The position numbers were made by a program, and so were the translations under genes. The notes below the pieces were generated by a model that was not told where the DNA came from, ran no database searches, and saw nothing but the letters and a program-made list of their open reading frames with translations. DNA of 25,426 bases, from positions 1 through 25,426 of the IMG/VR virus record IMGVR_UViG_3300042528_000147, one strand, 5' to 3'. The first letter of the stretch is position 1. Each line of letters opens with the position of its first letter. The DNA is from a virus. This document shows, piece by piece, positions 513-23,800 of this stretch.

Positions 513-539
513 GATGTTTATTTTTAAGTGGTTTATCAA

Positions 540-851
540 TTATCTATCTTGCCAATCAGTCCGCTGTTGGTCATCATCAAGGCTGTTGTCATTTGCAACG
601 TGCCATTCGTAATCCCAGTCGATGGAGTCAATTATATCTCTAAAGGCTTCGTCATTGACTTCGGCAAGGATGTAGGATAAGTCACCGACAAATTTTCGGT
701 CAATGTACAAATCAATTGCGAAATGTTCGTGTGAAAGGTCATAGGCTTCGCGGGGGCTGCTTACGTTGCAGCTAATCACGATTTCCTGTAGTTGGTTTTT
801 ACCGCCTTGTTTAAGTGGGCGAAACTTTTGGAATGATGTTTGGAGTTTCAT
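540..851 (-). CDS. hypothetical protein, 103 aa
   Basis: ATG at 851, TAA at 542-540. The N-terminus is basic (MKLQTSFQKFRPLKQGGK). The rest is acidic, with many Asp residues and a tail of the type DNDSLDDDQQRTDWQD. The composition is that of a soluble, negatively charged small phage protein, perhaps a decoy or inhibitor, but that is only a composition argument. It lies 26 nt after the gene at 878-1222 and is followed 27 nt later by the gene at 225-512, consistent with one leftward operon. No family recognised. Confidence 0.6.
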   Translation of the reverse strand: MKLQTSFQKFRPLKQGGKNQLQEIVISCNVSSPREAYDLSHEHFAIDLYIDRKFVGDLSYILAEVNDEAFRDIIDSIDWDYEWHVANDNSLDDDQQRTDWQDR

Positions 852-877
852 GTTATTGGGGTTTTTATTGTTTGTGA

Positions 878-1222
878 TTATATTAATTCAAAATTTAATT
901 CTTCGGCTGCTTCTTGATTGTCTGATACGTCCCCCCAGTCTAATACTTGCTCAATTGTTTGGAATGTATCGGTTAATCCTGTTTCGATATCTATAACCCA
1001 TTCTTCAATCATAGCGTTATACCCGCTCTTAGATTGTTCTGTTCTGTTGGTGATGAATGACAATGTTTTGGTTTCGCCATTATTCAAGCGATTACCTGAA
1101 TGATTACCAACGCGAATCTTAACTTCTTCGCCTGTTGTTGTGTAAACCGAGAAGTACTCAGTTTTGCCAACATTACTAAGGGTGTTAATGATTCTGTTTT
1201 TGATGTCGTTGATTGTATTCAT
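878..1222 (-). CDS. hypothetical protein, 114 aa; first gene of the leftward operon
   Basis: The start is taken as ATG at 1222 (MNTINDIKNR). A TTG eight codons upstream at 1246 would fall in the predicted -7 promoter element (1244-1251), so the ATG is preferred. The protein has a basic helical N-terminus, a central strand-rich part (TEYFSVYTTTGEEVKIRVGNH) and an acidic C-terminus (DWGDVSDNQEAAEEL). It is soluble and of unknown function. With a predicted 5' leader of only about 15 nt, it is probably the first gene transcribed leftward from the divergent region. Confidence 0.6.
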   Translation of the reverse strand: MNTINDIKNRIINTLSNVGKTEYFSVYTTTGEEVKIRVGNHSGNRLNNGETKTLSFITNRTEQSKSGYNAMIEEWVIDIETGLTDTFQTIEQVLDWGDVSDNQEAAEELNFELI

Positions 1223-1243
1223 TGTTTTATCGTTTTGTTGGTA

Positions 1244-1251
1244 CAAAGATA
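1244..1251 (-). promoter_or_regulatory. -7 element of the leftward promoter
   Basis: On the minus strand these bases read TATCTTTG, matching the Bacteroidetes -7 consensus TAnnTTTG. Transcription would start about 15 nt before the ATG at 1222. No clear TTG lies at the -33 distance, so it may be weaker than its rightward partner or need an activator. Confidence 0.4.
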
Positions 1252-1268
1252 TATCATATACATATATC
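1248..1268. promoter_or_regulatory. 21-bp imperfect palindrome, possible operator
   Basis: GATATAT at 1248-1254 and ATATATC at 1262-1268 form the ends of a near-palindrome whose centre is CATATAC. It overlaps the leftward -7 element, the position expected for a repressor site controlling divergent phage transcription. AT-rich DNA makes chance palindromes common, so confidence is low. Confidence 0.3.
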
Positions 1269-1311
1269 CCCGCTACCTATATTGTTAATGAATTGTTAAA
1301 TATATTTATTA

Positions 1312-1342
1312 TTGTGTATATTGAAAACATCGTGTATATTTG
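1312..1342 (+). promoter_or_regulatory. Bacteroidetes-type promoter for the helicase operon
   Basis: TTG at 1312-1314, a 20-nt spacer and TATATTTG at 1335-1342 match the known Bacteroidetes primary-sigma promoter (TTG, 19-21 nt, TAnnTTTG). Transcription should start near 1348, about 19 nt before the ATG at 1367. This rules out the TTG at 1340 as the start codon of the helicase. A direct repeat of GTGTATATT at 1314-1322 and 1332-1340 overlaps both promoter elements and may bind a regulator. Confidence 0.6.
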
Positions 1343-1366
1343 CAGAAACAAATAAAACCCCAATAT

Positions 1367-2737
1367 ATGAATGATTATTTAAAGTTCTTAGAACAAAAGC
1401 GGCACACAATAGGCAATTTTGGTTTTGATGCAAATTATATCCCTGATATTGCATTTGATTTTCAGAAGTTTGTAATTGAGAAAGCAATAAAGAAAGGCCG
1501 TTGTGCTGTTTTTTTAGATACCGGATTAGGGAAAACATTAGTACAAATCTCATTAGCTAAAAATATTGTAAATCATACAAATAAAAAAGTACTTATACTA
1601 ACTCCTTTGGCCGTTGCTTTTCAATTTATTTTAGAGGCTGAAAAATTAGGAATAGATGACATTGAGTACTCAAAAGACGGGAAGCACACAAAGAAAATAG
1701 TAGTCTGCAATTATGAAAGATTACACTACTTCAATGAGTCCGACTTTGAAGGGGTTGTATTAGATGAAAGTAGCATATTAAAAAATTTTGACGGTAAAAT
1801 AAAACAAGAAGTGACTTCTTTTGTAAAGAAAATACCTTATCGTTATTTATCAACAGCAACCCCAAGCCCCAACGATTTTATCGAATTAGGCACAAGTTCG
1901 GAGGCGTTAGGATATATGGGCTACATGGATATGTTAGGTAAGTTTTTTAAAAATAATCAGAATAGCGTTGATAGTAATAACCGGAATATAGGCGAAAAGT
2001 TTTATTTGAAACCACATGCAGAAAAAGACTTTTTTGCGTGGGTTAATCAATGGTCAATAATGGCTAAGATGCCAAGTGATTTAGGGTTTAGTAATGAGCG
2101 CTATAATTTACCAGAATTGATTGTAAATAGGCATGTAGTAGAAAACCAATCTTTGATTGATGTAAACGGGCAAATAAAAATGTTTACCCCAATTGCAAAA
2201 TCAATGACCGAGGTTAGGCATGAACAAAAGCAAACAGAAGAAAAACGTTGTGAAAAAGCTATTGAATTAGCTAAAGGCAGAACGTCTGTATATTGGTGCA
2301 ACACTAACAACGAAAGCAGCCTGTTAAAATATGCAGATAGTGAGGCTGTTGAAATAATTGGGAGCCAAAGCATAGATAAAAAGGAGGAAATACTTTTAGC
2401 GTTTGCAAATGGTGAAATTAAAAGGCTAATCACTAAGGCCAAGATGACCTCTATGGGTTTGAATTGGCAGCATTGCAATCATTCTGTATTTTTCCCTACA
2501 TGGAGTTATGAACAATACTATCAGGCTATAAGAAGGTTTTGGAGGTTTGGTCAGAAAAACGATGTAACTATTGATATGGTTATTTCTGATGGGCAAACAA
2601 GGGTATTAGAGGCATTGGAACAGAAAACACAAAAGGCTATTGAACTGCATAAAAATTTAACGGCTAATGTAAATAGATCATTTAGTCACAAGACAAAGGA
2701 ATTTGATAAAGAAATTATAAAACCAAAATTTATTTAA
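1367..2737 (+). CDS. SNF2/DEAD-box superfamily 2 helicase, 456 aa
   Basis: The start is ATG at 1367, just after the predicted transcription start. Superfamily 2 motifs are in order: Walker A DTGLGKT at residues 51-57, Walker B-like VVLDESS with D133-E134, motif III STAT at 162-165, and near the C-terminus an SNF2-type motif VI, QAIRRFWRFGQ, at 386-396. The acidic motif is DESS rather than DEAH, seen in phage SNF2-like proteins. The product is expected to be an ATP-dependent DNA translocase or helicase. The methyltransferase gene begins one base after its stop codon, so the two are co-translated. Such phage pairs may act in replication, DNA modification or defence against host restriction, and the sequence does not decide between these. 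The DNA is clearly AT-richer than the late region. Confidence 0.85.
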   Translation: MNDYLKFLEQKRHTIGNFGFDANYIPDIAFDFQKFVIEKAIKKGRCAVFLDTGLGKTLVQISLAKNIVNHTNKKVLILTPLAVAFQFILEAEKLGIDDIEYSKDGKHTKKIVVCNYERLHYFNESDFEGVVLDESSILKNFDGKIKQEVTSFVKKIPYRYLSTATPSPNDFIELGTSSEALGYMGYMDMLGKFFKNNQNSVDSNNRNIGEKFYLKPHAEKDFFAWVNQWSIMAKMPSDLGFSNERYNLPELIVNRHVVENQSLIDVNGQIKMFTPIAKSMTEVRHEQKQTEEKRCEKAIELAKGRTSVYWCNTNNESSLLKYADSEAVEIIGSQSIDKKEEILLAFANGEIKRLITKAKMTSMGLNWQHCNHSVFFPTWSYEQYYQAIRRFWRFGQKNDVTIDMVISDGQTRVLEALEQKTQKAIELHKNLTANVNRSFSHKTKEFDKEIIKPKFI

Positions 2738-2738
2738 A

Positions 2739-3752
2739 ATGGAACAAAAAGTAAAAGACCAAATCGTAACAGACAATTATGCGCTATACAATAGCGATTG
2801 CATGTTAGTATTGCCATCAATTGAATCAGAAAGTATTGACCTGTCAATATATAGCCCTCCTTTTGCTGGGTTGTACAATTACTCAAGTAGTGAATTTGAT
2901 TTTAGTAATTGTGAATCTAAGGAGCAGTTTTTAGAGCAGTATGAATTTTTGGTAGCTGAAATAGCCAGAGTTACAAAAAAAGGTAGAATAACCGCTGTTC
3001 ATTGTACAGATGTTTTTGACAATACTTGTAGATTATGGGATTTCCCAAATGAAATAATCAGAATACATCAGAAATACGGGTTTGAATATCGTAACAGGAT
3101 TACGATATGGAAGGAGCCTTTAAAAGTTCGTATGCGTACTATGGTGCAAAGTTTGATGCATAAGTTTATTGTTGAAGATAGTACTAAATGTTTTACCGCT
3201 ATGCCTGATTATGTTTTGATATTCACTAAAAAAGGAGAAAACGAAGTACCCGTAACCCATCCATACGGAATCAATCATTATGCCGGTGAAATCCCGATTT
3301 TGCCAAACATTTTGCGAGCATGGAATAACGCAAATAATTCAGACTTAACAGAATCTGAATTATGGGAACACTTGAACAAAGTAAACGAAGATGATAATGT
3401 CACAAAACTAAATCACTATATTTGGCAGCGTTATGCCTCAAGTGTTTGGGATGACATCCGGATAGATAATGTTTTGCCGTTTAGGGATTCAAAAGAAGAA
3501 GATGACGAAAAGCATGTACACCCATTGCAATTAGATGTAATAGACCGACTTGTTGAATTATATTCAAACCCGAATGAAGTAGTTTTAACGCCATTTATGG
3601 GAGTTGGTAGTGAGGTTTATAGCCCTGTTTCTATGGGCAGAAAAGCAATAGGGATAGAACTAAAAGATAGCTATTTTAAACAAGCAAAACTAAATCTACA
3701 GGCTGCTGATAAGCGATTCAAGCAGGCAGCAAAAAATATAACATTATTCTAA
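2739..3752 (+). CDS. DNA adenine-N6 or cytosine-N4 methyltransferase, beta-class, 337 aa
   Basis: The catalytic motif IV is SPPF at residues 39-42, near the N-terminus, and the S-adenosylmethionine motif I is TPFMGVGS at 284-291, followed by GRKAIGIEL. Catalytic motif before cofactor motif is the order of the beta class of N4/N6 amino-methyltransferases. SPP[FY] is frequent in N4-cytosine enzymes but does not exclude N6-adenine. No restriction endonuclease gene is next to it, so it is probably an orphan enzyme that protects phage DNA or works with the preceding helicase. Length is normal for the family. The segment at about 190-250 is variable and could be the target-recognition part. Confidence 0.85.
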   Translation: MEQKVKDQIVTDNYALYNSDCMLVLPSIESESIDLSIYSPPFAGLYNYSSSEFDFSNCESKEQFLEQYEFLVAEIARVTKKGRITAVHCTDVFDNTCRLWDFPNEIIRIHQKYGFEYRNRITIWKEPLKVRMRTMVQSLMHKFIVEDSTKCFTAMPDYVLIFTKKGENEVPVTHPYGINHYAGEIPILPNILRAWNNANNSDLTESELWEHLNKVNEDDNVTKLNHYIWQRYASSVWDDIRIDNVLPFRDSKEEDDEKHVHPLQLDVIDRLVELYSNPNEVVLTPFMGVGSEVYSPVSMGRKAIGIELKDSYFKQAKLNLQAADKRFKQAAKNITLF

Positions 3753-3768
3753 ACAAAAACAAATAACC

Positions 3769-3972
3769 ATGCAAGAAACAGAAACACAACGCAAAAACAT
3801 AGACATCCCTTATCCCGTATTGCAAGCCCTTGAGATAATCGGATTGAAAGAGAAGCCAAACGGGAACAAGTATCCTAAACACATCATTGAGGATTTGTGT
3901 ATTGATTACACGATTAATGCCGGCTATGTGAAGCGGGATAAGGCAGGTAATTTAGTAAGGACTAATAAATAG
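3769..3972 (+). CDS. hypothetical protein, 67 aa
   Basis: ATG at 3769 follows the methyltransferase stop by 16 nt, with an A-rich leader (AACAAAAACAAATAACC) typical of Bacteroidetes starts. The protein is soluble, with a helix-prone middle (YPVLQALEIIGLKEKPNGNKYPKH quoted in part as YPVLQALEIIG) and a basic C-terminus. It could be a small DNA-associated protein, but no family is recognised. It is the third gene of the rightward operon, and the next gene follows after 6 nt. Confidence 0.6.
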   Translation: MQETETQRKNIDIPYPVLQALEIIGLKEKPNGNKYPKHIIEDLCIDYTINAGYVKRDKAGNLVRTNK

Positions 3973-3978
3973 TATACC

Positions 3979-4323
3979 ATGCACTTCAACAACCTAAAAC
4001 AATTCCTCGAAAGCGGACTGAGCCAAAAGCAATTCGCAATAAGTCAAGGCATAAGCGTCACAGGAATGGCAGATAGATTAACCCGCGAAATGAAGCGGTT
4101 ATTATCTACAAACGTAATCGAAGCAAAACGGATCGTAGGCGAAGTATCCATTCATATTGATGACGTAAAGCGTAATCGGGCTAATTGGCTCAAAGCCATT
4201 GAAGCATACAACCAAACAATGTGCGCACCTGTTGACATCAAAACCGATAACCGAAAGATAAGCGAGTTGACGGTGAGTGAGTTTGTAGGGGTGATGATGA
4301 AGGTGATGGGCGGTGAACGCTAA
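3979..4323 (+). CDS. helix-turn-helix-like hypothetical protein, 114 aa
   Basis: The N-terminus (FLESGLSQKQFAISQGIS, then TGMADRLTREMKRLL) reads like a helix-turn-helix in which the phage gene decides whether a coding programme is repeated, as in small phage regulators. The recognition helix would lie near residues 22-32. A long charged helix follows, and the C-terminus is short and hydrophobic (VSEFVGVMMKVMGG). DNA binding is an inference. Its stop codon TAA (4321-4323) lies inside the first bases of an attC-like repeat (TAACG), the same arrangement as for the genes further on, so the repeat array is attached directly to its 3' end. Confidence 0.6.
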   Translation: MHFNNLKQFLESGLSQKQFAISQGISVTGMADRLTREMKRLLSTNVIEAKRIVGEVSIHIDDVKRNRANWLKAIEAYNQTMCAPVDIKTDNRKISELTVSEFVGVMMKVMGGER

Positions 4324-4392
4324 CGTTTGGTGGATACAGGCTGTGAGCGTTGGATTGAGGGCAGGAAAATAGCGTGTATGTGCTGTTATAAC
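4318..4392 (+). repeat. attC-like imperfect palindrome 1
   Basis: It opens with CTAAC over the stop codon of the preceding gene and closes with GTTATAA at 4385-4391. Arms ATACAGGCT (4334-4342) and AGCGTGTAT (4371-4379) pair with one G-G mismatch. The centre carries AGCGTTGGATT, also present in repeat 2. A strong T-run is absent, so it is not a normal terminator. Confidence 0.65.
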
Positions 4393-4472
4393 CAATGCTT
4401 TTGATATGTAAAGAAAAGTGCCAAAACCTATACACGTTGTAAAAACATATAAAGAAAACATCAAATATAAAT

Positions 4473-4565
4473 ATGGAACACGAAACATCATTAAACCACG
4501 AAACCCCGCCATCTTGTTTAGGTGCTGTTATAAGCCGTTTTTCTTCACAAATCAAAATAAAATGA
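4473..4565 (+). CDS. 30-residue leader peptide-like ORF
   Basis: ATG at 4473 to TGA at 4563-4565, encoding a peptide that ends SRFSSQIKIK and contains ETPPSCLGAVIS. Its stop overlaps the start of the next gene as ATGA, a sign of translational coupling. The codons for GAVIS are GGTGCTGTTATAAGC, the same bases as the 3' end of the attC-like repeats (GTGCTGTTATA at 4521-4531). The peptide may therefore be translated from a relic repeat end. Whether it is made as a product is unknown. Confidence 0.35.
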   Translation: MEHETSLNHETPPSCLGAVISRFSSQIKIK

Positions 4566-4735
4566 GAAGATTAACAGGAAAATATAGGATTCGCAAAACA
4601 TTATTTGGGTGGCAAATAAAAGTAGAAGTTTATAAAACAGTTTGTGACTTTGTTGGTGATGAAAGTCCAGATATAAAGGTTTGGCGAAAAGCAAGTGTAG
4701 AAGATTTGATTGAGTTAGGTATAAATTGTGCCTAA
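4562..4735 (+). CDS. hypothetical protein, 57 aa (cassette unit 1)
   Basis: ATG at 4562 is preferred to the in-frame GTG at 4418. The ATG follows an A-rich leader (CAAATCAAAATAAA) and forms ATGA with the end of the short ORF upstream, whereas the GTG reading would run through that ORF in another frame. The protein is basic in its first half (MRRLTGKYRIRKTLFGW) with strand-like alternation, then acidic (DESPDIKVWRKASVEDLIEL). Its stop codon TAA forms the first bases of repeat 2. No family is recognised. Confidence 0.5.
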   Translation: MRRLTGKYRIRKTLFGWQIKVEVYKTVCDFVGDESPDIKVWRKASVEDLIELGINCA

Positions 4736-4812
4736 CGGTTTGCAGCTACACGCAGTAGCCGAAGCGTTGGATTGTGCGGTCGGGGCTATTGCTTGTAGGT
4801 GTTGTTATACGC
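4730..4812 (+). repeat. attC-like imperfect palindrome 2
   Basis: The best-formed copy. It opens with GCCTAAC (4730-4736), which fits the integron R-box pattern RYYYAAC, and closes with GTTATAC (4804-4810). Arms CTACACGCAGTAGCC (4746-4760) and GGCTATTGCTTGTAG pair over 15 positions with one mismatch and one G-T pair. A G-G mismatch follows at the outer edge, at the same place as in repeat 4. The loop holds AGCGTTGGATT. Confidence 0.7.
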
Positions 4813-4847
4813 TGCCTTTATTACTAATTTAATTTAAAAACAAAAAT

Positions 4848-5096
4848 ATGAACGCAAGAGAAAAAGCATCAGAACTTATAGTTGATTTTCAGCTAAAGTG
4901 TAAAACATTAGACTATCAAGAAGCCAAACAATGTGCTTTGATAGCAGTTGAAGAAATATTGCATTGTGAAGCCACAGAACCATCTGATACTGATTGGGAT
5001 GATTGCGGTGCAACTGCTCAATATTACTGGCCGCAAAAGAAAGTTGATGCAGGTAAATTTTGGGGCGATGTCAAATCGGAGTTGCAGTCTTTGTAA
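4848..5096 (+). CDS. small phage-type hypothetical protein, 82 aa (cassette unit 2)
   Basis: ATG at 4848 follows a leader of AAAAACAAAAAT, the usual Bacteroidetes start. The segment EAKQCALIAVEEIL (residues 25-38) and the C-terminal FWGDVKSELQSL resemble a small protein often found in phages and mobile elements of Bacteroidetes, which has no known function. That likeness is from memory and not from a search. The protein is helical and acidic, with no membrane segment. It is the only main gene between repeats 2 and 3. Confidence 0.65.
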   Translation: MNAREKASELIVDFQLKCKTLDYQEAKQCALIAVEEILHCEATEPSDTDWDDCGATAQYYWPQKKVDAGKFWGDVKSELQSL

Positions 5097-5102
5097 GGTT
5101 GC

Positions 5103-5145
5103 GTATAACGTCCGATGGCTTTGCGTTCGGGCGGGGTTATTAACC
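5103..5145 (+). repeat. attC-like palindrome 3, short form
   Basis: GTATAAC at 5103-5109 opens it and GTTATTA at 5136-5142 closes it. The stem is ATAAC with GTTAT and CCGA with TCGG, much shorter than in the other copies. GCGTT occurs near the centre as in repeats 1, 2 and 4. Total length is about 43 bp against 75-90 bp for the others. It starts 7 nt after the stop codon of the gene at 4848-5096. Confidence 0.5.
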
Positions 5146-5164
5146 ACTAAAGTAAATTTGAAAA

Positions 5165-5461
5165 ATGAAAGATAAATTAAACACAAATGTTCATTCGGAG
5201 CAAGTCGCCCCGCCTGACGCAAAACCATTGTTACCTGCCGTTTTTTTGTCGGGTAATGATAAAGCTGAACAATTCCAAAAGGAGTTTAAAGCATTATTGG
5301 CTAAGTACGATGCTGAATTGAATATTGAAGATTTTGGCAGGAATTGGAGTTCAGATGAAAAGATAGTCGTGAATTTCAGGTGGGATGAAGATTTAGCTAA
5401 TAGAACTAATGATGGAATTGTTCCTGATTGGGTTATCGGTCGTTGGGAAAATGGCGTATAA
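5165..5461 (+). CDS. hypothetical protein, 98 aa (cassette unit 3)
   Basis: ATG at 5165 follows AAATTTGAAAA and lies 20 nt after repeat 3. The N-terminal 30 residues are polar and proline-containing, and the remainder looks like a small alpha-beta domain (FKALLAKYDAELNIEDFG, then KIVVNFRWDEDL). Phages carry related-looking small proteins with a KALLxKYxA start, but no function is known to me. The last codons GGC GTA TAA form the first bases of repeat 4, so the stop codon lies inside the site. Confidence 0.55.
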   Translation: MKDKLNTNVHSEQVAPPDAKPLLPAVFLSGNDKAEQFQKEFKALLAKYDAELNIEDFGRNWSSDEKIVVNFRWDEDLANRTNDGIVPDWVIGRWENGV

Positions 5462-5544
5462 CGTTTTGCAGATAAGCGAAGGCACAAATAGCGTTGGCAT
5501 TGTGCAGTTGGATTTGGGCTTTTGCTTATGTGCTGTTATAGCCA
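5454..5544 (+). repeat. attC-like imperfect palindrome 4
   Basis: GTATAAC (5456-5462) opens the site over the stop codon and GTTATAG (5535-5541) closes it. Arms ATAAGCGAAGGC (5472-5483) and its partner at 5519-5530 pair over 12 positions with two G-T pairs. Next outward is a G-G mismatch, then CA with TG. The loop has AGCGTTGGCATT, close to the AGCGTTGGATT of repeats 1 and 2. Confidence 0.7.
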
Positions 5545-5608
5545 GTACGATTAATTTAAGATAAAATTTAATACGAAGAACTAAAAAAAGAATTTAAAAA
5601 ATATAGCG

Positions 5609-6274
5609 ATGGCAAGAATTTTAATAGCCTGTGAAGAAAGTCAGGCAACAACAAAAGCATTTAGAAAATTAGGACACGAAGCGTTTTCGTGCGATTTATT
5701 ACCTTGTAGCGGTGGACATCCTGAATGGCACTACCAATGTGATATTTTTGAAGTAATAAATCAAGGTTGGGATTTAATGGTTGCACATCCACCGTGTACG
5801 TTTTTAACAGGTAGTGGTGTTCAATGGCTATCACATCCCGAAGATAAGGCTTTGCCATTTGAGCAACGCAGACCACATCCGAAGTACCCAAATAGGAGAA
5901 ATGATATGTTGGATAGTGTAGAATTTGTAAAAGCCTTATACAACGCAGATATAAAACATATAGCCATTGAAAACCCAGTAGGATTATTGAGTAGCCGATG
6001 GAGAAAACCTGACCAAATTGTGCAACCATATATGTTTGGAGATGAAGCAACGAAAACTACTTGTTTATGGCTTAAAAATTTGCCTTTGTTGTTGCCTACT
6101 GATATTGTTGGAAAGGGTGAAAGAACTGTTTTTGCTTCGGGTAAATCACATCCAAAATGGTACGCAGATGCTTTGAAGAACGCAAAGACAAAAGAGGAAA
6201 GACAAACATTAAGAAGCAAAACATTTGAAGGAATGGCACAGGCTTTTGCAGAACAGTGGGGAGGTATTTTTTAA
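5609..6274 (+). CDS. C5-cytosine DNA methyltransferase-like protein, 221 aa (cassette unit 4)
   Basis: Residues 1-31 (MARILIACEESQ, then GHEAFSCDLLP) look like the cofactor-binding strand and loop of a Rossmann methyltransferase. HPPCTFL at 60-66 supplies the proline-cysteine motif IV with C63 as the probable nucleophile, and ENPVG at 121-125 fits motif VI. Full-length C5 enzymes are usually above 300 residues with a separate target-recognition domain, and this compact form is common in phages. It probably modifies phage DNA, but activity is not proven. It is the largest and last cassette unit, with a 64-nt leader after repeat 4, and no restriction partner is near. Confidence 0.7.
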   Translation: MARILIACEESQATTKAFRKLGHEAFSCDLLPCSGGHPEWHYQCDIFEVINQGWDLMVAHPPCTFLTGSGVQWLSHPEDKALPFEQRRPHPKYPNRRNDMLDSVEFVKALYNADIKHIAIENPVGLLSSRWRKPDQIVQPYMFGDEATKTTCLWLKNLPLLLPTDIVGKGERTVFASGKSHPKWYADALKNAKTKEERQTLRSKTFEGMAQAFAEQWGGIF

Positions 6275-6316
6275 ATTCTTTTCTCACAAATGCTGATACG
6301 AAGCACAAAGTAGTAT

Positions 6317-6366
6317 TGGCTATAACTCCCAAATACACGCAATACCCTGCGTCTATTCAGCGTCCG
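6317..6366 (+). repeat. attC-like half site 5 at the array's right edge
   Basis: TGGCTATAAC (6317-6326) supplies the opening box and ATACACGCAATACCC (6333-6347) matches 12 of 15 bases of the 5' arm of repeat 2. AGCGT follows at 6359-6363. No matching 3' arm or GTTATA is present afterwards, so the 3' half appears to be lost. It lies 42 nt after the stop codon, unlike the other copies. Confidence 0.4.
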
Positions 6367-6378
6367 AAATACCATACA

Positions 6379-6412
6379 TTAACCCGATTTATGGCCTACA
6401 ATGTAGGGTTAA
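6379..6412. terminator. inverted repeat between convergent genes, possible terminator
   Basis: TTAACCC (6379-6385) pairs with GGGTTAA (6406-6412), and the 20-nt interval contains the small hairpin CCTACA/TGTAGG. It lies between the end of the rightward array and the stop codon of the leftward gene at 6413. There is no T-run on either strand, so termination is only suggested by position. Confidence 0.3.
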
Positions 6413-7612
6413 TCAATCAATACATGAATGATTGATGATGCATTCATTAATTACTTTCCTGTCCTCATAGTAATTGAAACTTATAAACCCGCTTATCCCT
6501 TGTTGGAAGTTTACTTGCACCCATGATGATGACGGACTTAATGCCGGGTAGTTGTAATAGTTGAATCTTTGAGCGGTGCTGCTATCAAACAAGTATTGGT
6601 GCGAATCACCTTTACTGAATTCGATAATTCCCTTTAGTCCATTTCTATCGAGGTAGTTATCAATCTTGTTTTCTTGTATCTTATCCAATTTCGGCTTAAA
6701 TCCAAACTTTAAAGAAACCGAATCTTTGCCATGACTTAGTACAAATGTGTACTTCCCGACCTTGTAAAAATCAATGAACTTTCTGATATTAACCACCTCA
6801 ACATTTGGAAGCATCATTTCAATGGCTGTCTTAAATGCTGAATTGAGAATGTACCCAAAACTGCCCGCATGATTGTCTTCGCATACATTGTGGCAAATGA
6901 TATTATCGTAATACGGTGCCAATGATTGAACCAATTTAATCTTAAACCTCAATCCCACATCAAACGCTTTTTGGTTGTCCATGTTTTGCGGTAAATGATG
7001 TCCTTTTCGCACCGTTTGCGCATCGTAGCCATCAAGGAAATCGCCTAAGTCATCAATGTATAAAACCTTTGATTTTCTATTCAAGATTGTATGCTGAATC
7101 ATCCTATCGCACATCTTGTTCAGTTCATGTTCGTCCCACAAACCGCCGTACAAACTATAATCGGTTACCATCATCCCAACGTGCGTATCGGTGTACACTA
7201 AGCGGTCAAACAAGGCCGTTTCAACTGATGGTTGCTTCTTATACTGCAAAGGCTTTATCTTCCCAAATAACGCCTTAAAATCAATATCTTCAACTCTTAA
7301 CTCACCCGCCTCCCGATAATTCGGATTAACTACAAAAATTGACGCCTCCTTGTTTTTAATCCACATATTTTTGGTGGACGTATTCGGAACATCAAGATTA
7401 TTAGTCGCATTGTACAGCCCTTCATGCTCATCTAACAACCGCTTTTCATGTCGGGCTATAAACCGCCTGAATCCTCGTACTATCGGGTCTTCATCCCTTT
7501 TTGCGGTTGTGTTTAAGATTTTCTCTACTATCTTATAATGCGCCATGCCTTGCCGTAGCAATTCGGCAATCTGGGCGTCGTATTGATAATAGTCTATTGG
7601 TTTGTATGACAT
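6413..7612 (-). CDS. calcineurin-like metallophosphoesterase with helical N-terminal region, 399 aa
   Basis: The metal-ligand motifs of calcineurin-like phosphoesterases appear in order: D142-x-H144 (TDTHVG), GDxxD at 190-194 (GDFLD), N247-H248 (EDNHAG), H294-G295 (LSHGKD) and GDSH at 335-338 in place of the usual GHxH. The fold should bind two metal ions and hydrolyse phosphate esters or nucleic acid, with unknown substrate. Residues 1-65 form a separate helical part (AQIAELLRQGMAHYKIVEKIL) that looks like a helix-turn-helix. It is the last gene of the late leftward run, an unusual place for such an enzyme, and comes after a terminator-like hairpin and a small HExxH gene. Confidence 0.7.
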   Translation of the reverse strand: MSYKPIDYYQYDAQIAELLRQGMAHYKIVEKILNTTAKRDEDPIVRGFRRFIARHEKRLLDEHEGLYNATNNLDVPNTSTKNMWIKNKEASIFVVNPNYREAGELRVEDIDFKALFGKIKPLQYKKQPSVETALFDRLVYTDTHVGMMVTDYSLYGGLWDEHELNKMCDRMIQHTILNRKSKVLYIDDLGDFLDGYDAQTVRKGHHLPQNMDNQKAFDVGLRFKIKLVQSLAPYYDNIICHNVCEDNHAGSFGYILNSAFKTAIEMMLPNVEVVNIRKFIDFYKVGKYTFVLSHGKDSVSLKFGFKPKLDKIQENKIDNYLDRNGLKGIIEFSKGDSHQYLFDSSTAQRFNYYNYPALSPSSSWVQVNFQQGISGFISFNYYEDRKVINECIINHSCID

Positions 7613-7621
7613 AGGGTAATT

Positions 7622-7873
7622 TTACCGACCTCTGTTATTTTTTGTCCTCTCATATCCGTTATCAATTAAAAATTTCGCCATCTCATTACCAATCATTTCT
7701 ACTTGTGCCTCATCAAGATACGGCTGTAAATAATGCGTGTATTCATGAATCAATGTGTTTAGCAGTTCTTCGCCTTCAAGCCTGCTATCAATCTCAATTT
7801 TATTTTCAGGGGTGTAAAAGTACCCCCTTGCATATCGTAGCTTTTTGTATTCGACTTTTACTTTCTTTGGCAT
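7622..7873 (-). CDS. small HExxH putative zinc metallopeptidase, 83 aa
   Basis: The start is ATG at 7873 (MPKKVKVEYKK). A TTG at 7918 is in frame but falls in the terminator hairpin and is rejected. The sequence LIHEYTHYLQP contains H43-E44-x-x-H47, the zinc site of many metallopeptidases, and acidic residues at 55, 59 and 64 could give the third ligand. At 83 residues it is a minimal domain, similar in size to SprT-like or phage-encoded minimal peptidase domains. Substrate and activity are unknown. It is separated from the endolysin gene by a hairpin and followed 9 nt later by the phosphoesterase. Confidence 0.6.
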   Translation of the reverse strand: MPKKVKVEYKKLRYARGYFYTPENKIEIDSRLEGEELLNTLIHEYTHYLQPYLDEAQVEMIGNEMAKFLIDNGYERTKNNRGR

Positions 7874-7903
7874 GATGATTAATTGAATGTGATAAATAAC
7901 AAA

Positions 7904-7935
7904 CCCCGACTTAGACAAGTCAGGGCGTTCTTTTT
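7904..7935. terminator. bidirectional terminator-like hairpin after the endolysin
   Basis: CCCCGACTT (7904-7912) pairs with AAGTCAGGG (7917-7925) around the loop AGAC, with a single C-A mismatch. On the plus strand CGTTCTTTTT follows. On the minus strand the stem is followed by TTTGTTATTT. The late operon is read leftward, so it should end or attenuate transcription after the endolysin gene. Confidence 0.6.
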
Positions 7936-7976
7936 AAACCTACCTATGCTAAAAGTTTTATGCGGATGCATTGTTT

Positions 7977-8540
7977 TTATTTTAGTCCATTGAAAAAAGC
8001 CTGAGCATACCCCGCAATTAATACGTCCTTATCCCGCCCGTTGATAATCTTCCGGGCATTTATCCAATCGGTTTTTGTTGGGCTGAAATATTGTGACAGT
8101 TTCCGACCTGTAAACCATCCATGAATCATACCTTCAAACATGATGTCGGCTGCAATTTGTAAATCACAGGCCAATTCAGGATTGTTCAGCAAATCAACTC
8201 CCAACTTTTTACCCGCTTTCTGATAATTCTCATACCACGTTAGCTGAACGAATCCACGCCCATAATATAATTGGTCGGGCGTTGTGTACGGCTTTCGGTC
8301 CATTCGGATTTTACTACCATAAGGACGGCCTTTGCCTTTGCCAAATTCAACAATGGGCTGCATGGTCTTTGCTGTTTCATGGAATACCGTTGCCAAACAA
8401 TACGCCAATCCCTTAATGCCTATTTCTGAATACTTTTGTTCGTATTCATCAAGTATTGAATCAATGCCCTGAATCTGCTTTGCGGTATACTTTACAAACA
8501 ATGGCCTTACCGTATCGAATAATCTTTTGCGGTCAATCAT
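7977..8540 (-). CDS. GH19-type endolysin, 187 aa
   Basis: Residues 47-64 (AYCLATVFHETAKTMQPI) contain the catalytic glutamate E55 in the context expected for glycoside hydrolase family 19, and YYGRGFVQLTW at 92-102 is the second hallmark of the family. The enzyme should cleave the glycan backbone of peptidoglycan for host lysis. No signal peptide is visible, so export would depend on a holin, and two small membrane proteins are encoded upstream (8743-8910 and 8921-9286). Its ATG overlaps the stop of the preceding gene as ATGA. The length fits a single-domain phage enzyme. Confidence 0.85.
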   Translation of the reverse strand: MIDRKRLFDTVRPLFVKYTAKQIQGIDSILDEYEQKYSEIGIKGLAYCLATVFHETAKTMQPIVEFGKGKGRPYGSKIRMDRKPYTTPDQLYYGRGFVQLTWYENYQKAGKKLGVDLLNNPELACDLQIAADIMFEGMIHGWFTGRKLSQYFSPTKTDWINARKIINGRDKDVLIAGYAQAFFNGLK

Positions 8541-8746
8541 AAATATACTTTAGTTGTTGGTCCTCCGTCCTCAATTCCGATATGCTCAAAAAAGATACCC
8601 GCTATGCTTAGTTCATCTTTAAACAGACCCGCATCCGCTACTGAAGTCGATACGGTTACTACTTTCGGATTGTTGCAGTCGTAGTGAAGATGATAGCTAA
8701 TTCCTAACCCTGATAGGATGCTTGTAATGCGTTGGATGGGGGTCAT
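8537..8746 (-). CDS. hypothetical protein, 69 aa, in the lysis region
   Basis: ATG at 8746 overlaps the stop of the 55-residue gene upstream (ATGA), and its own stop overlaps the endolysin start in the same manner. The gene is thus locked into the lysis cluster. The protein has short alternating hydrophobic and polar segments (ISYHLHYDCNN, then KVVTVSTS) and looks like a small strand-rich soluble protein. No membrane helix and no family recognised. It could assist or regulate lysis by position only. Confidence 0.6.
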   Translation of the reverse strand: MTPIQRITSILSGLGISYHLHYDCNNPKVVTVSTSVADAGLFKDELSIAGIFFEHIGIEDGGPTTKVYL

Positions 8747-8910
8747 CGCGCTTCGTTTTCAGTTGTTTTATCAGGAATCAAACGACCCAATAACGTGAAC
8801 AGACTCCAACTTTTAGCAGTCGGAACTAAGCGAATAATGACTTCATAAACCGCAAATGCAGCCGTTGTAATTGGCTCCCAATGCTCCTGAATTAATTGAA
8901 TGATGTGCAT
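8743..8910 (-). CDS. small possible membrane protein, 55 aa, holin-like position
   Basis: Read directly from the gap: ATG at 8910 (MHIIQLIQEHWEP) to TGA at 8745-8743. Residues 14-29 (ITTAAFAVYEVIIRLV) are hydrophobic and could form a membrane helix, and a second weaker stretch is WSLFTLLGRLIP. A polar tail (DKTTENEAR) ends it. It is one of two small proteins ahead of the endolysin and could be a holin or a lysis accessory protein. Position and shape are the only evidence for that role. Confidence 0.5.
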   Translation of the reverse strand: MHIIQLIQEHWEPITTAAFAVYEVIIRLVPTAKSWSLFTLLGRLIPDKTTENEAR

Positions 8911-8920
8911 AATTATTTTT

Positions 8921-9286
8921 TTAAGCGTTATTTAATTTCAATTTCGAAACAGCCTTATTCATGGCGTTTTTTAGTTCGGTGTTATCAGTTACGGCTTTCT
9001 CAAGAAACGGCATCAATACATCGAACGCTGAACGTATTTCAATCATTTGCATTTGTATCTCTTCGAGTTGACCCATGACTAACTTAAACTCCTTTTGCAG
9101 TTCATTGTATTGGGTCATTATTTCATCCCGTCCCAATTTAGCCACTTCTTCTTTCTTTAGCTTAATCTTTCCGTCCGTTTCTGTTTTCTTTTTTGCGAGG
9201 TCAATCCATGCCCGAACCGCTGCCCCGATTAGTAAACATATCGTCGTAATCCAACCTCCGTATTCCTTAATTTCGTCCGCTGCCAT
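8921..9286 (-). CDS. N-terminal membrane anchor plus coiled coil, 121 aa; candidate holin or spanin-type
   Basis: A hydrophobic segment at residues 11-25 (GWITTICLLIGAAVR) is followed by a highly charged, heptad-like helix (KKKTETDGKIKLKKEEV, then QYNELQKEFKLVMGQLEEIQMQM), which predicts a coiled coil. A single N-terminal anchor with a coiled coil is the design of inner-membrane spanins and of some phage holins. The gene lies 10 nt before the small membrane protein of the lysis cluster. No lipid-anchored partner spanin is seen nearby. The role in lysis is an inference from shape and neighbours. Confidence 0.55.
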   Translation of the reverse strand: MAADEIKEYGGWITTICLLIGAAVRAWIDLAKKKTETDGKIKLKKEEVAKLGRDEIMTQYNELQKEFKLVMGQLEEIQMQMIEIRSAFDVLMPFLEKAVTDNTELKNAMNKAVSKLKLNNA

Positions 9287-9296
9287 GAGATTATTT

Positions 9297-9605
9297 TTAA
9301 GCTATAATTAAATCCAAAATCGTATCCGCCAATTTTTGCGTACTTGTTTGTGCGTGAGCCGTTCCGTTTAATTTAATTACGTTATCCTTTGTAAGTATAG
9401 GCGAGTTGCGCCCTTCATGCGAAACGACTTGAAAGTAAGGTGCAACTTGTGCATCACCCGCAGCGTAATAAATTATCGGGTCATGATATTGCGCAAATGA
9501 ATAATTTTCAGCTGGTGTGCTTACTCCTAATGCAGTGCATTCGGTAATGATGATTGATACATCAGCATTTCCATGCGATGTGGTGTCGATGTTGTAATAA
9601 GTCAT
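9297..9605 (-). CDS. hypothetical protein, 102 aa, late region
   Basis: ATG at 9605. Soluble, mainly strand-forming composition with many Thr, Ser, Asn and Tyr (IIITECTALGVSTPAEN, then YFQVVSHEGRNSP), as is common in phage structural or fibre-associated proteins. The C-terminal 20 residues are helical (TSTQKLADTILDLIIA). It sits between a predicted surface protein and the lysis cluster. No family recognised. Confidence 0.55.
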   Translation of the reverse strand: MTYYNIDTTSHGNADVSIIITECTALGVSTPAENYSFAQYHDPIIYYAAGDAQVAPYFQVVSHEGRNSPILTKDNVIKLNGTAHAQTSTQKLADTILDLIIA

Positions 9606-18292: not shown

Positions 18293-18512
18293 ACGGTGTA
18301 ATAATTTCGTATCGCTCGATTCCTCTCTCAATGGTTGTTTGGAGTTCAGCAGCCCTAAACCGACCATCCTCTTCATCGTAATAAATGGCATAGTTAATAC
18401 CTGAATCCAACGCCCGCTGTTTGGTTGTGTTATAGATTGCATCGTATTGCTGGTTTAATAGCTGCTTTTTTAACCTACATGGTATGCAGCCCGGATCAAT
18501 TAACTGAGTCAT
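18288..18512 (-). CDS. hypothetical protein, 74 aa, with CxxC
   Basis: ATG at 18512 overlaps the stop of the gene at 18509-18946 as ATGA. Residues 9-12 (CIPC) form a CxxC pair in a short N-terminal part, and the rest is polar (DSGINYAIYYDEEDGRF). Two cysteines could be part of a redox or metal site but no second pair exists. It reads well as a protein, which is the main reason to reject the longer overlapping start of the next gene. It may also be the first half of a frameshifted product. Function unknown. Confidence 0.55.
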   Translation of the reverse strand: MTQLIDPGCIPCRLKKQLLNQQYDAIYNTTKQRALDSGINYAIYYDEEDGRFRAAELQTTIERGIERYEIITPY

Positions 18513-18946
18513 AATCCTGTTTCTTTTTTGATGTATGTCACAAGCCCCGGATTGATTATTTCGTACTTAACATCCTCCTTATTATCCGTTGTAAGGCCAA
18601 ATATTGTAGCACCGTATTTCCTCTTTAAATCAGGTGTTTTGCTATCAGTTGAAGTGATTTCATACATATTTGTGCTTTGTATATTCAACTTCATTGAATT
18701 CTGAAAACCGCCTTTATCGTAAAGGTCTGGATTCCCGTATCCGGGCGATGGGTTCCGTTTGTTTTTCTTTGCTGCGTATGCCGCTGAAGCATACTTCTTT
18801 AGCCGTTTCTTCTCCTTATCAAACCCATCCATCAACTGCTCTCGGTTCTTATCTATGATGTCCTCTTTGCGTTCAGATACAATGCTAATTGCTGCCCGTT
18901 TGACGTCTATTTTAGACCATCTGCGTTTTAGTTCTTGTATAGTCAT
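18509..18946 (-). CDS. phage structural-region hypothetical protein, 145 aa
   Basis: It starts 13 nt after a terminator-like hairpin. Residues 1-55 are a basic helix (MTIQELKRRWSK, then KEKKRLKKYASAAY) and the middle GNPDLYDKGGFQNSMKL is of the type seen in small head-tail joining or tail completion proteins, where a loop with a Gly-Gly-Phe precedes a strand. The C-terminus has alternating strands (YGATIFGLTTDN, then YEIINPGLVTYI). The location between the probable tail tube and tape measure genes agrees with a completion role, but no family is certain. Confidence 0.5.
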   Translation of the reverse strand: MTIQELKRRWSKIDVKRAAISIVSERKEDIIDKNREQLMDGFDKEKKRLKKYASAAYAAKKNKRNPSPGYGNPDLYDKGGFQNSMKLNIQSTNMYEITSTDSKTPDLKRKYGATIFGLTTDNKEDVKYEIINPGLVTYIKKETGL

Positions 18947-18958
18947 AGGTTAAAAATA

Positions 18959-18979
18959 GTAGGGGCATTTCACCCCTAC
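18959..18979. terminator. hairpin terminator inside the late operon
   Basis: GTAGGGG (18959-18965) and CCCCTAC (18973-18979) pair perfectly over 7 bp around a 7-nt loop. On the minus strand it is followed by TATTTTTAACC, and on the plus strand by ATTTGTTTTTT, so it could act either way. It lies between the lipoprotein gene and the gene at 18946. Downstream late genes need either read-through or a new promoter. Confidence 0.6.
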
Positions 18980-18988
18980 ATTTGTTTT

Positions 18989-19465
18989 TTAGTCCATGTT
19001 CAAGACCTGAGCCTCAACACGTGTAGATTGTGTGCCTGTTCCAACACAAGCAATACGCAAATACATAACCCTACCCCAATTGGATAATACCGTTGGAGTT
19101 GGATTTAATGACCAAATGAAATAAGCAGGAGCAGCAGATGTAACCTGTAAGGTATCGCATTGAATACCTGTTTGTCCGGCTGTGCCATAGAAATTAACCC
19201 AATTCGTTCCATCCAATGACCCTTGTAAGATTGCCTTAAAGGTAGATGTGCCTGAAATATTGGTTGTTCTCAATGATACACGATAACGGCCGCTTTGGTT
19301 TGACTTAATGGCTGACAATTGGGATGTCAAATACGTAGTACCCGCATTCGTTACGGTGTCAAAATATGTATCTGAGCCGTAAAGGTATGGCAATTGTGCA
19401 TTTGCTTTTTGGTTGCAAGCCGTGAAGCATAACAGGGCCATGATTGCGAAAATAAAATTTTTCAT
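18989..19465 (-). CDS. predicted phage-encoded lipoprotein, 158 aa
   Basis: The N-terminus is a signal peptide: MKNFIFAIMALLCFTAC, with C17 preceded by FTA, a reasonable lipobox for signal peptidase II, followed by polar residues. A signal-peptidase I site (ANA before Q) is an alternative. The mature part is strand-rich with a DGTNW segment at about 90. Exported proteins in the middle of a phage structural operon are unusual; some phages encode lipoproteins that block superinfection by related phages. A terminator-like hairpin lies directly after the gene. The A-rich leader (AAAAAC repeated) precedes its ATG. Function not proven. Confidence 0.6.
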   Translation of the reverse strand: MKNFIFAIMALLCFTACNQKANAQLPYLYGSDTYFDTVTNAGTTYLTSQLSAIKSNQSGRYRVSLRTTNISGTSTFKAILQGSLDGTNWVNFYGTAGQTGIQCDTLQVTSAAPAYFIWSLNPTPTVLSNWGRVMYLRIACVGTGTQSTRVEAQVLNMD

Positions 19466-19489
19466 TTTTGTTTTTGTTTTTGTTTTTTG

Positions 19490-19669
19490 TTATTGATTTT
19501 TTTCTTCTTTTGGTTCCGCCTTAACAGGATGGGTTTTGTCCCAAAGCAAATCCAATGTTTGAGAAGCAACCCCGTCATTTGCGGGGTGCTTCATAAACTT
19601 ATCTTTGCTTTTGAACGTAGCAACCCAATCAAGGTTAAACGACACTTTGTCTATTCTGATTGTTTCCAT
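19490..19669 (-). CDS. small hypothetical protein, 59 aa
   Basis: Read directly from the gap between the lipoprotein and the tail tube gene: ATG at 19669 (METIRIDKVSFNLDW) to TAA at 19492-19490. The first half carries strand-like alternation and the C-terminus is charged (KAEPKEEKNQ). The gene begins 3 nt after the previous stop, so it belongs to the late operon. No family recognised. Confidence 0.55.
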   Translation of the reverse strand: METIRIDKVSFNLDWVATFKSKDKFMKHPANDGVASQTLDLLWDKTHPVKAEPKEEKNQ

Positions 19670-19672
19670 ACG

Positions 19673-20644
19673 TTAGCTTCTTGGTGTGGTAATTGATGTT
19701 CCTGCATGACCTAATACGCCCGCCGTTACCAAATCCGATACGTCACCAATGGTAATCTTGATAAGCATTCCGGCTGTTGCAGGATAGTCTGTATCTGCTG
19801 CATCCAATTGGACATTGAACGTCTTAGTAGCTGCTGCATAGGTTACGGATGTAACGGTGATTGCATTACCCGTTGCCACATTCTGAGCGCTGTACAATGA
19901 TGCCGTTGCCAATTCGGTGGAATAGGTGTCAGCAAGATTTGTAGCACCGCAGCCGTCATTGATTTGCAACTTAACCAAACCGCCCGCCGTCATTGCAGTG
20001 TGGACAACGATTTCAGTATCTATCAATGAACTCAATTCATATAACAGATTCACGGATTTGTCAAATGAAACGATACCCCATGAATTGTTGAACTCATCAG
20101 GGTTTTGCATTGCAAACGTGACGTAGAACTTAGAATCAGCAGCACCGGTATTGAGCTTGAAGTTTGGCACGTCAATCATTTCCAATGTGAATCCCTTAAA
20201 CTTATTGTCAGCGGTTTTAACGCCGAGTAATACGTTGTTTTGAGTGTCCACATAGATAACATCAAACAAATCCTGTTTGTTATCCAATGAACTGATTTTT
20301 TGATGTAAACACGCACCGCCTTTGATGTACTCAAATGTGTATGAATATTTACCATTTCGGATTTTACGATTACCGCCGTAAGGAGTGGCCTCATAAACCC
20401 CCTCAGATGATTTATCCTCCATCCCCACGAATGTCTTAATGAGTTGGAAGCGGTCCGCTTGCACGTCCTCCGCTAACCCGTCCTGAACATTTGTAAGCAT
20501 ATCGGATATTTGAGCCGTTGTAAACTCATAACCTCTCGGCACAAGTAAAACGCCTTCGATAAGTCCGGGCGTGTAGTGGCATGAAGTGAATCCGGTATTG
20601 GATACACTTGCTATGCAGCTAAACGCATTTAATGAATTTGGCAT
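19673..20644 (-). CDS. probable major tail tube protein, 323 aa
   Basis: It follows the connector and neck-type genes and precedes the tape measure region, the standard place for the tail tube gene in siphoviruses. The composition fits: strand-rich, acidic, with few cysteines, a central segment LLGVKTADNKFKGFTLEM (about 155-172) and a C-terminal part with Val/Thr alternation like an added immunoglobulin-type domain (VTYAAATKTFNVQLDAADTD). Length is at the upper end of the family, consistent with a C-terminal extension. The role is inferred from order and composition and not from a catalytic motif. Confidence 0.6.
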   Translation of the reverse strand: MPNSLNAFSCIASVSNTGFTSCHYTPGLIEGVLLVPRGYEFTTAQISDMLTNVQDGLAEDVQADRFQLIKTFVGMEDKSSEGVYEATPYGGNRKIRNGKYSYTFEYIKGGACLHQKISSLDNKQDLFDVIYVDTQNNVLLGVKTADNKFKGFTLEMIDVPNFKLNTGAADSKFYVTFAMQNPDEFNNSWGIVSFDKSVNLLYELSSLIDTEIVVHTAMTAGGLVKLQINDGCGATNLADTYSTELATASLYSAQNVATGNAITVTSVTYAAATKTFNVQLDAADTDYPATAGMLIKITIGDVSDLVTAGVLGHAGTSITTPRS

Positions 20645-22573: not shown

Positions 22574-23800
22574 TTAAGGAGTTTCAAGTGCTGCAATAGC
22601 GTTAGTGATGTTTGAAGCGTAAACAATAGCTGCTTTATCGTTCTCTTTCACATAGTGAACAGCACGCATTTCACCTAAGATTGTAACTTGGTTTTTTGTG
22701 AAGTTATCGCTATTCAGACCAACGCTGATGTTAAACTCTTCACGGATACCCAATGTACATTTCGATGGGTCAAGGATGTATGCTTCATTGGCAGTAACAC
22801 CATTGTTTTCTACAACCAACAGACCGGCAGAGGTCATCAACCCGCCCGGAACATCCGTAGCATAACGACCGTTCTTGTCTTTCACCATGCGAAGCAAAGC
22901 AACGTCATTTGGGTTCATCAATGCAACCGTTGCGTTGTAGTTTGCTTTAGCAACCTGAGCCTTTGCAGTCACAAGGAAGTCAAAGATATTGGCGTTCTCA
23001 ATCAAATCAGTAAATCCGGTTGTTGCATAAGAAGTTGCGTATGTTTCAATTCCTTTCAAGTTAGGGCTTACACCGCTACCTGTTAAGATTTGAGAATCCA
23101 ATTCCAATTCAACCAATTCGCGTAATTCATCATTGATGATTGACTGCAAGTAAGGCAAATCAGCAAGGGCCTGCTTAGTAACGGTTACATAAGAAGCAAC
23201 GGTTTCAACAGGTAATTTGCGCTCAACCAAATTGAAATCGGATTGTGACTTAGCATTTCCTTCGGTCTGCATACCTGCACCACCTTCAGGGGTTGCTTTG
23301 TCAAACCAGCTGATATATTGGTCAGCAATAGGACGGGTACGGATTAATTGGCGTAAGAACGGCGCACGACGGGCAAATTGACCGACATTAGGGTCCCATG
23401 AAGAAATCCCTACAAAGCCGCCTGAGTAGTTAGATGAACTCATGTTAGCAACGTCCTTGTTTACGATTGACATCTCAACCGATTGGCCGGGCTTCCAATT
23501 CTTCAATTGCTCGATGTGCTGACCTAATTGTTTGCTTACTTGGTCCGAAAATGTTGGTTCTTTGTAGTCACGTTGTTTCATGGCCTGCAATTCTTCGATT
23601 GCAATACCTTGAGCCTTCAACGTGTCTGTTAAAGAGTCCTGAACGGCTTTAGTTTCCGTTTTGATTGATTCGGTTAATGCTTCCATCTTTGAAGCAAATT
23701 CTTGATTGTTTATCATCCCGTTCAATTTGTCGGTGACAAACTTTTGAGCCTGACCTGTGATTTCTGAAATCAGGGCTTTTTCTTGTTCGTTAAATTCCAT
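22574..23800 (-). CDS. major capsid protein, HK97 fold, 408 aa
   Basis: Residues 1-75 are a charged coiled coil (EQEKALISEI, then FASKMEALTESIKTETKAV) typical of the scaffolding delta domain that the prohead protease removes. The remainder shows the HK97 pattern: SGGFVGISSWD, TRPIADQYISWFDKAT, PVETVASYVTVTKQALADLP (start of the spine helix region), then LELDSQILTGSG at about 232-243. The protein builds the icosahedral shell. The gene is preceded by the protease gene (13-nt gap), which supports the processing scheme. Confidence 0.9.
   Translation of the reverse strand: MEFNEQEKALISEITGQAQKFVTDKLNGMINNQEFASKMEALTESIKTETKAVQDSLTDTLKAQGIAIEELQAMKQRDYKEPTFSDQVSKQLGQHIEQLKNWKPGQSVEMSIVNKDVANMSSSNYSGGFVGISSWDPNVGQFARRAPFLRQLIRTRPIADQYISWFDKATPEGGAGMQTEGNAKSQSDFNLVERKLPVETVASYVTVTKQALADLPYLQSIINDELRELVELELDSQILTGSGVSPNLKGIETYATSYATTGFTDLIENANIFDFLVTAKAQVAKANYNATVALMNPNDVALLRMVKDKNGRYATDVPGGLMTSAGLLVVENNGVTANEAYILDPSKCTLGIREEFNISVGLNSDNFTKNQVTILGEMRAVHYVKENDKAAIVYASNITNAIAALETP

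Follow-up and report, generated by a model that had tools for sequence, protein, structure and literature searches.

Among the closest described systems are small phage lipoproteins that face the periplasm. Llp of phage T5 is periplasmic and acts on FhuA, and exclusion proteins are reportedly made early (both in passages of PMC9586334), while Rtp45, a periplasmic protein of about 6 kDa, acts on LptD (in a section of PMC12685063). In secreted Bacteroidota proteins the Q-rule denotes a Gln at position +1 of the signal peptidase I site (in part of PMC10653852), and phages of Porphyromonas gingivalis encode secreted proteins of the Q-rule type, to which passages of PMC10367356 give no function. 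XepA of the Bacillus subtilis prophage PBSX is an exported late phage protein with a beta-sandwich fold.

The locus analysed here shares some features with each of these systems. Its product would be, like Llp and Rtp45, a small phage lipoprotein facing the periplasm, a likeness proposed for the way of working and without a claim of kinship. It differs from both in its larger size (about 14 kDa for the mature protein, estimated from the 134 residues after residue 24, against about 6 kDa for Rtp45), its late operon and its beta-sandwich model. A profile search of PDB chains returned 46 sequences to E 1, with neither Llp nor Rtp45 among them, the inclusion of these two in the searched set being uncertain. 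The P. gingivalis phage proteins likewise use host Sec/Q-rule export, but their phages are temperate and inserted at tRNA-Pro genes (passages of PMC10367356), and the likeness considered here is one of export type. XepA differs in its two domains, its pentameric state and its lytic cassette, and the similarity of fold is at background level. No account of the exported family was found among the matches listed for the open-licence PMC literature.

Gene, neighbours and hairpin

The window, a single virus record of 25,426 bases, carried most of its large ORFs on the minus strand from 6.4 kb onward. Its relevant features were:

18989..19465, minus: exported-protein gene, ATG start, 158 aa; homologues and purifying selection
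19394..19465, minus: residues 1-24, the signal peptide region, with the lipobox F14-T15-A16-C17 and, before Q24, A21-N22-A23 as a possible type-I site
18992..19393, minus: mature-domain codons, residues 25-158; predicted all-beta sandwich, pLDDT 69, pTM 0.70
18959..18979, minus: hairpin GTAGGGG-TGAAATG-CCCCTAC, then TATTTTTAAC; conserved; weak terminator or other RNA element
18509..18946, minus: downstream neighbour, phrog_6195 tail protein, 145 aa; PHROG match, E 9e-26
19490..19669, minus: 59-aa ORF between the tube-like gene and the exported-protein gene
19673..20644, minus: upstream neighbour, tail-tube-like, 323 aa; named by position and size; phrog_31902 (unknown function)
22574..23800, minus: major capsid protein gene, PF05065
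15069-17522, minus: tape-measure-like gene
7977-8540, minus: endolysin gene
225..9605, no strand assigned: non-structural and lysis block, in which 12 ORFs match phage L008 at 66-99% aa; the L008 structural block is unlike

The preliminary description had placed a lipoprotein gene at 18947-19465 without giving a strand. The gene was real, but the gene proper occupied 18989-19465 of the minus strand, and the rest of the interval was the 42-nt gap before the next gene. The gene had also been placed between tail genes, and it was indeed flanked by the tube-like gene and the phrog_6195 gene; however, the 59-aa ORF lay there as well, and the name “tail tube” came from position and size and was given by no profile library searched. 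The 59-aa ORF occupied the place of an 86-aa ORF in the contig L026, an equivalence by position only. Unlike in several relatives, the exported-protein gene of the window was not behind the capsid gene. No Pfam, PHROGs or PADLOC profile matched the exported protein above the curated cut-off; the best matches below it were a PHROG at E 0.024 and Pfam Invasin_D3 at E 0.006 (17.5 bits against a cut-off of 33), with none from PADLOC. Its PDB sequence matches were discarded as chance-like, the best being the dehydrogenase 3cky (E 3.6e-4), followed by fluorescent proteins. Elsewhere in the window, two DNA methyltransferase genes were found at 2739-3752 and 5609-6274 (PF01555; phrog_757), the first of them directly behind the helicase gene at 1340-2737.

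The perfect 7-bp hairpin reported earlier behind the gene was confirmed at 18959-18979 (7-nt loop) and was kept in 7/7 relatives with the same gene context. Its 66-nt fold of -14.2 kcal/mol (z -2.97) was equalled or bettered in 4 of 200 shuffles, and when the 42-nt gap was shuffled 20,000 times, such a stem arose in 8 cases. It was the only perfect stem in the window with at least 7 bp, at least 5 GC and a loop of 3-8; 0.5 such stems were expected per shuffled window (40 shuffles), so one anywhere was not surprising. In L005, L006 and L007 the stem was GTGGGGG/CCCCCAC, with one A-T pair changed to G-C on both sides, and the identity of two of these three variants at this place would perhaps point to a single event. 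As for the proposal that the gene has its own terminator, the conserved hairpin agreed with it, but the T run behind the stem was only 4-5 long and terminator-like sites as a class were at shuffle level in the region (17 found against 16.5 expected). The hairpin might be a weak terminator at best, or another RNA element near the next start codon. It was absent behind the gene in L008-L012, and none was seen by eye behind the family gene in L026 and L027. Another terminator-like hairpin of the minus strand, with 10 pairs, was located at 7903-7926, where it follows the endolysin gene closely and stands at the start of 7622-7918.

A promoter belonging to the gene itself was not found: sigma-70-like sites were at shuffle level, with none listed just upstream on the minus strand, and the promoter motif TANNTTTG occurred 13 times on that strand, none of them within 18400-20000. 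Since no own promoter was seen, the gene probably shares a transcript with the late structural genes. Its GC content of 0.415, against 0.37-0.48 in 14 other genes measured, showed that its composition was not deviant. The label moron-like thus fitted in one respect, the absence of the gene between the same genes in L026, but not in promoter or composition.

Export signal and predicted fold

The 158-aa protein began with MKNFIFAIMALLCFTAC-NQKANAQ... and was the sole one among 37 window ORFs selected by script (ATG, at least 50 aa) with a signal-peptide-like start and a cleavage motif, as called by a simple motif rule of our own. Under the same rule three other ORFs had a hydrophobic stretch only, without a cleavage motif. 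The signal peptide with a lipobox-like FTAC, as first described, was borne out: FTAC stood at positions 14-17 in 13/13 sequences of two near groups (window, L002-L013; eight distinct N-termini), with residues 2-5, 7 and 9-11 varying around it. In the same 13 sequences A21-x-A23-Q24, a type-I signal peptidase site of the Bacteroidota Q-rule form, was invariant at A21, A23 and Q24, while residues 18, 19, 22, 25 and 26 varied. At lipobox residue -3, F is a weaker fit than L. Lipidation at Cys17 is likely, judging from this conservation, and not certain because the AxA-Q site was as conserved as the lipobox.

That second site would allow a soluble periplasmic protein, cut by signal peptidase I before Gln24 and carrying no lipid, with a function otherwise as in the best reading given below or unknown. 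It would explain why A21, A23 and Q24 were invariant among varying residues, and the more distant relatives examined had a type-I site without a lipobox; but FTAC was just as invariant among its own varying neighbours, and modification of a lipobox cysteine normally precedes any cut by signal peptidase I. We regard such a protein as improbable. With lipidation as the likelier course, the residues after Cys17 bear on the membrane face. They were C-N-Q-K, C-N-E-K or C-T-E-K, with fewer than two acidic residues and so no LES motif, whereas the lipoprotein surface-export signal of C. canimorsus requires two (in part of PMC5080379). With no acidic export signal behind Cys17, a periplasm-facing anchor is expected.

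The signal region evolved faster than the rest of the gene (dN/dS 0.14-0.67). A signal peptide was present and the lipobox absent in the more distant L026, L027, L045 and L046, and Gln was found at +1 of the type-I site in 8/8 family representatives (window, L026, L045, Pan5, MD05, L079, L053 and L075).

Modelling of the mature part by AlphaFold with 17 sequences gave pLDDT 69 and pTM 0.70 and an almost entirely beta structure; a first model with 12 near sequences had been dropped at pLDDT 55. The model points to a likely beta sandwich. The first PDB rows of Foldseek were the carbohydrate-binding modules CBM22 and CBM36 (E 3e-4 to 6e-4), and the best viral row was an uncharacterised phage protein (E 4e-7, 26% identity); glycan binding is at this stage a guess from the model. 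The highest VIA-align Z was 8.1, about background, a Z under 8 being background for such models.

XepA appeared at VIA-align rank 4 (Z 7.8, rmsd 3.4, 101 residues), and it is exported and absent from mature particles (in part of PMC6834076). The window protein could accordingly be imagined as a lysis helper: made late, exported and folded as a beta sandwich, it would perturb the membrane and so promote release. The Z value is within background, however, XepA has two domains against one in the window protein, and more than 10 kb separate the gene from that of the endolysin at 7977-8540, so that we find this role improbable. An outer spanin was dropped for the same distance from the endolysin gene.

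Near relatives and the wider family

Searches of viral contigs gave 12, 14 and 16 loci, plus L053 at 28%. Seven contigs had the phrog_6195 neighbour and nine had the tube gene; the seven with both neighbours were the seven that carried the gene in this context, and the remaining two tube-gene contigs ended inside the tube gene. To the extent of the sampling, every near-group phage had the gene (7/7 contigs with both neighbours). The preliminary description had held that fixed presence with no conservation of the lipobox would speak against it; presence was fixed, but the lipobox was conserved in these contigs too, and in the wider family the signal peptide was retained and the lipobox was not. 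Purifying selection was seen in the mature part (dN/dS 0-0.20 in eight comparisons), and the two flanking genes gave 0.02-0.07 in four comparisons. The syntenic but more distant L026 had the tube-like gene, the 86-aa ORF and a gp10-like gene with no family gene between them.

Action in the prophage state, as suggested before, was unsupported, since phage integrase was found in 0/13 records and resolvase in 0/11, these records possibly being fragments. A scan of the genome collection for two short conserved patterns gave one match, in the signal peptide only, and the near profile A2 gave one weak match in 395 genomes (E 9e-4, inside a 1382-aa frame). Against known phage records the window protein reached E 4 or worse and the L026 protein E 0.5, and the L045 protein matched Pan5 at E 0.06 and LS06-2018-MD05 at E 0.02.

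Sequence comparison places the window gene in a wider family, whose products are exported and predicted to fold as beta sandwiches. Members around L026, L045, L053 and Pan5 resembled it in sequence, N-terminal export signal and place in the structural block, but had type-I Q-rule signal peptides without a lipobox and, in several cases, lay behind the capsid gene. In L026 (capsid by phrog_10) and L027 (capsid by likeness) the member was directly behind that gene; in L053 a 77-aa ORF separated it from a preceding capsid-like ORF, and in L075 and L078 it began about 250 bases behind one. The relatives in L053, L075 and L078 were two-domain. The window capsid matched the capsid-like ORF of L075 at 35%, the only one for which this label was checked. 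Pan5 UXO94049, annotated “cement protein”, was directly behind the annotated capsid gene, and WBC28462 of phage LS06-2018-MD05 was behind a “virion structural protein”. Pairwise hhalign probabilities were 97.9 for Pan5, 95.3 for MD05 and 94.1 for L053; the E-values are optimistic, with the signal peptide included, and the links to Pan5 and MD05 rest on this pairwise comparison. PDB matches of the Pan5 protein by sequence were glutamate receptors and were set aside as chance-like.

At E 0.01 the wide profile A4 matched 17 of 395 genomes. Only G096 (E 8.5e-16) covered it in a small ORF, located behind a 361-aa ORF that is a putative capsid gene by place; the other 16 matched at E 1e-4 or weaker. 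PF05065 was found in 20 of the 395 genomes (phylum of G001), at 26 loci, and among the next three ORFs a neighbour with an export motif was detected at 0/26 by script and at one by eye (L112), so that capsid genes do not generally have a secreted neighbour. The GC content of these PF05065 loci, 0.32-0.67, makes it doubtful that all their hosts are Bacteroidota.

Sharing between phage types and proposed function

Phage L008 (40,282 bases) has one shared ORF that matched both ends of its record, which suggests a circular genome. It matched 13 of 33 window ORFs: 12 within 225-9605 at 66-99% aa identity, one of them probably an antisense frame, and the exported-protein gene, whose product was 82% identical over 155 aa. 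The 13 other large window ORFs, at 9630-25411, had no match in L008 (0/13, tblastn at 1e-3), and it is in this sense that the structural blocks are called unlike. By profile, the phrog_6195 tail protein was found in both (E 9e-26 in the window, 1e-5 in L008), and the two structural blocks may be remotely akin. No capsid protein was identified in the L008 record. While the whole-record comparison was made with L008 alone, two proteins were compared with L009-L012: the 399-aa protein of 6413-7612 was 96-98% identical in 3/5 L008-type contigs and the tube gene occurred in 0/5, which excludes a single chimeric assembly as the cause. The 399-aa protein itself, 98% identical between the two phage types and near the lysis genes, belonged to phrog_22398, with a weaker match to phrog_704, DNA repair exonuclease.

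L008 and L045 had similar structural blocks, with matches at 28-56% in 13 further structural-region ORFs, and L045 carried at the corresponding site a family member of its own with 42% identity to the L008 member. The window block resembled the one in L026, where ten ORFs matched at 24-44% and the member behind the capsid gene was 50% identical to the window member. Judged by these alignments, every structural type has a resident member, and the lipobox version is common to two types that share non-structural genes. The tree placed the window and L008 members together, L026 next and L045 outside, with moderate supports for the near groups (83/76, 88/84 and 86/97) and a midpoint root that gives no direction of transfer.

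A protein of the cement type is expected to travel with a given capsid type. Here the 82% copy stood beside an unlike block, yet each structural type had a member. The copy suggests that the protein works on the host and is not part of the particle. Nevertheless, a virion decoration has to be weighed: as a member of a cement or head-fibre family associated with the capsid, the protein would be exported and then attach to the particle at lysis or later, or would retain its signal peptide. The homologues behind the capsid gene in L026 and L027 and near capsid-like ORFs in L053, L075 and L078, the Pan5 “cement protein” with its hhalign probability, the constant place of the family gene within the structural block and the beta-sandwich model are all in keeping with it. 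On the other side, cytoplasmic assembly does not need the Sec signal peptide with +1 Gln seen in 8/8 representatives, the 82% identical copy lay beside a block with BLAST matches to 0/13 other large window ORFs, and the 26 PF05065 loci yielded an export-motif neighbour by eye only once. The Pan5 paper names BLASTp, HHpred and AlphaFold2 with DALI as its methods (passages of PMC9837993), and the word “cement” is absent from its main text. Taken together, decoration appears rather unlikely. In a variant of it, the exported beta sandwich would stay in the periplasm or on a lipid anchor and coat the particle no earlier than lysis, which would explain the capsid-gene neighbours, the export signal and the sharing between phage types together. 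One such coat could suit phages of a single host whose capsids differ, might contribute glycan binding, and if true would be a new assembly route. To this passage through the host envelope we give a low probability.

The reading that we favour, and hold tentatively, is a late-made, envelope-located, host-directed protein, whose task in the lytic cycle is most likely to exclude superinfecting phages or to mask a receptor. For such a role of a lipoprotein facing the periplasm, Llp with FhuA and Rtp45 with LptD are solved precedents. The reading is preferred because 82% identity beside an unlike block is unexpected for a protein tied to the capsid and because cytoplasmic assembly needs no Sec signal. 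In this mechanism the gene would be co-transcribed with the late structural genes, the hairpin ending the segment, and the Sec machinery of the host, presumably a member of the Bacteroidota, would export the late-made protein. Most likely lipidated at Cys17, it would be anchored in the outer (or inner) membrane and face the periplasm. The body of the protein, a probable beta sandwich like those of carbohydrate-binding modules, would occupy or alter a receptor (a glycan or an outer-membrane transporter). With the receptor masked, neither infected cells nor debris would bind progeny, and additional phages would be excluded, in the manner of T5 Llp and Rtp45.

Against a host-directed protein counts the position of the gene inside the structural block in every context seen, and against exclusion its place among the late genes. 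The size above that of Rtp45, the lack of an exclusion lipoprotein among the PDB sequence matches, the AxA-Q site as conserved as the lipobox and the faster evolution of the signal region weigh on the same side. The late operon, the constant structural-block place, the capsid-side homologues and the name “cement” are why exclusion is held so tentatively and decoration is kept beside it. Host-directed action had been part of the preliminary description; sharing by phages with unlike structural genes is as expected of a host-directed accessory gene, and the prophage component is unsupported. Bacteroidota phage proteins exported by the host Q-rule pathway had been noticed before (passages of PMC10367356). 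New here is a Q-rule family, some members having a lipobox and others none, that is tied to structural operons and common to two phage types with unlike structural genes; for it the question of host envelope or virion is now directly testable. Receptor masking, if true, would extend exclusion lipoproteins to phages where none was met in this analysis.

Several minor observations were made in the same records. In L112, at 2821-3363 of the reverse complement, a different Q-rule signal-peptide protein with an inner start MKRLLILF... was located two ORFs after the PF05065 capsid gene. The 545-aa protein of L008 at 5478-7115, a portal protein by position only, showed a DnaJ-type CxxCxGxG zinc finger at E 0.0015, below the cut-off, and its counterpart in L045 had a similar CxxCxGxG motif by eye. 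Comparison of window positions 1-9605 with L080 and L081 showed the structural block swapped between phages whose non-structural and lysis proteins are 66-99% identical.
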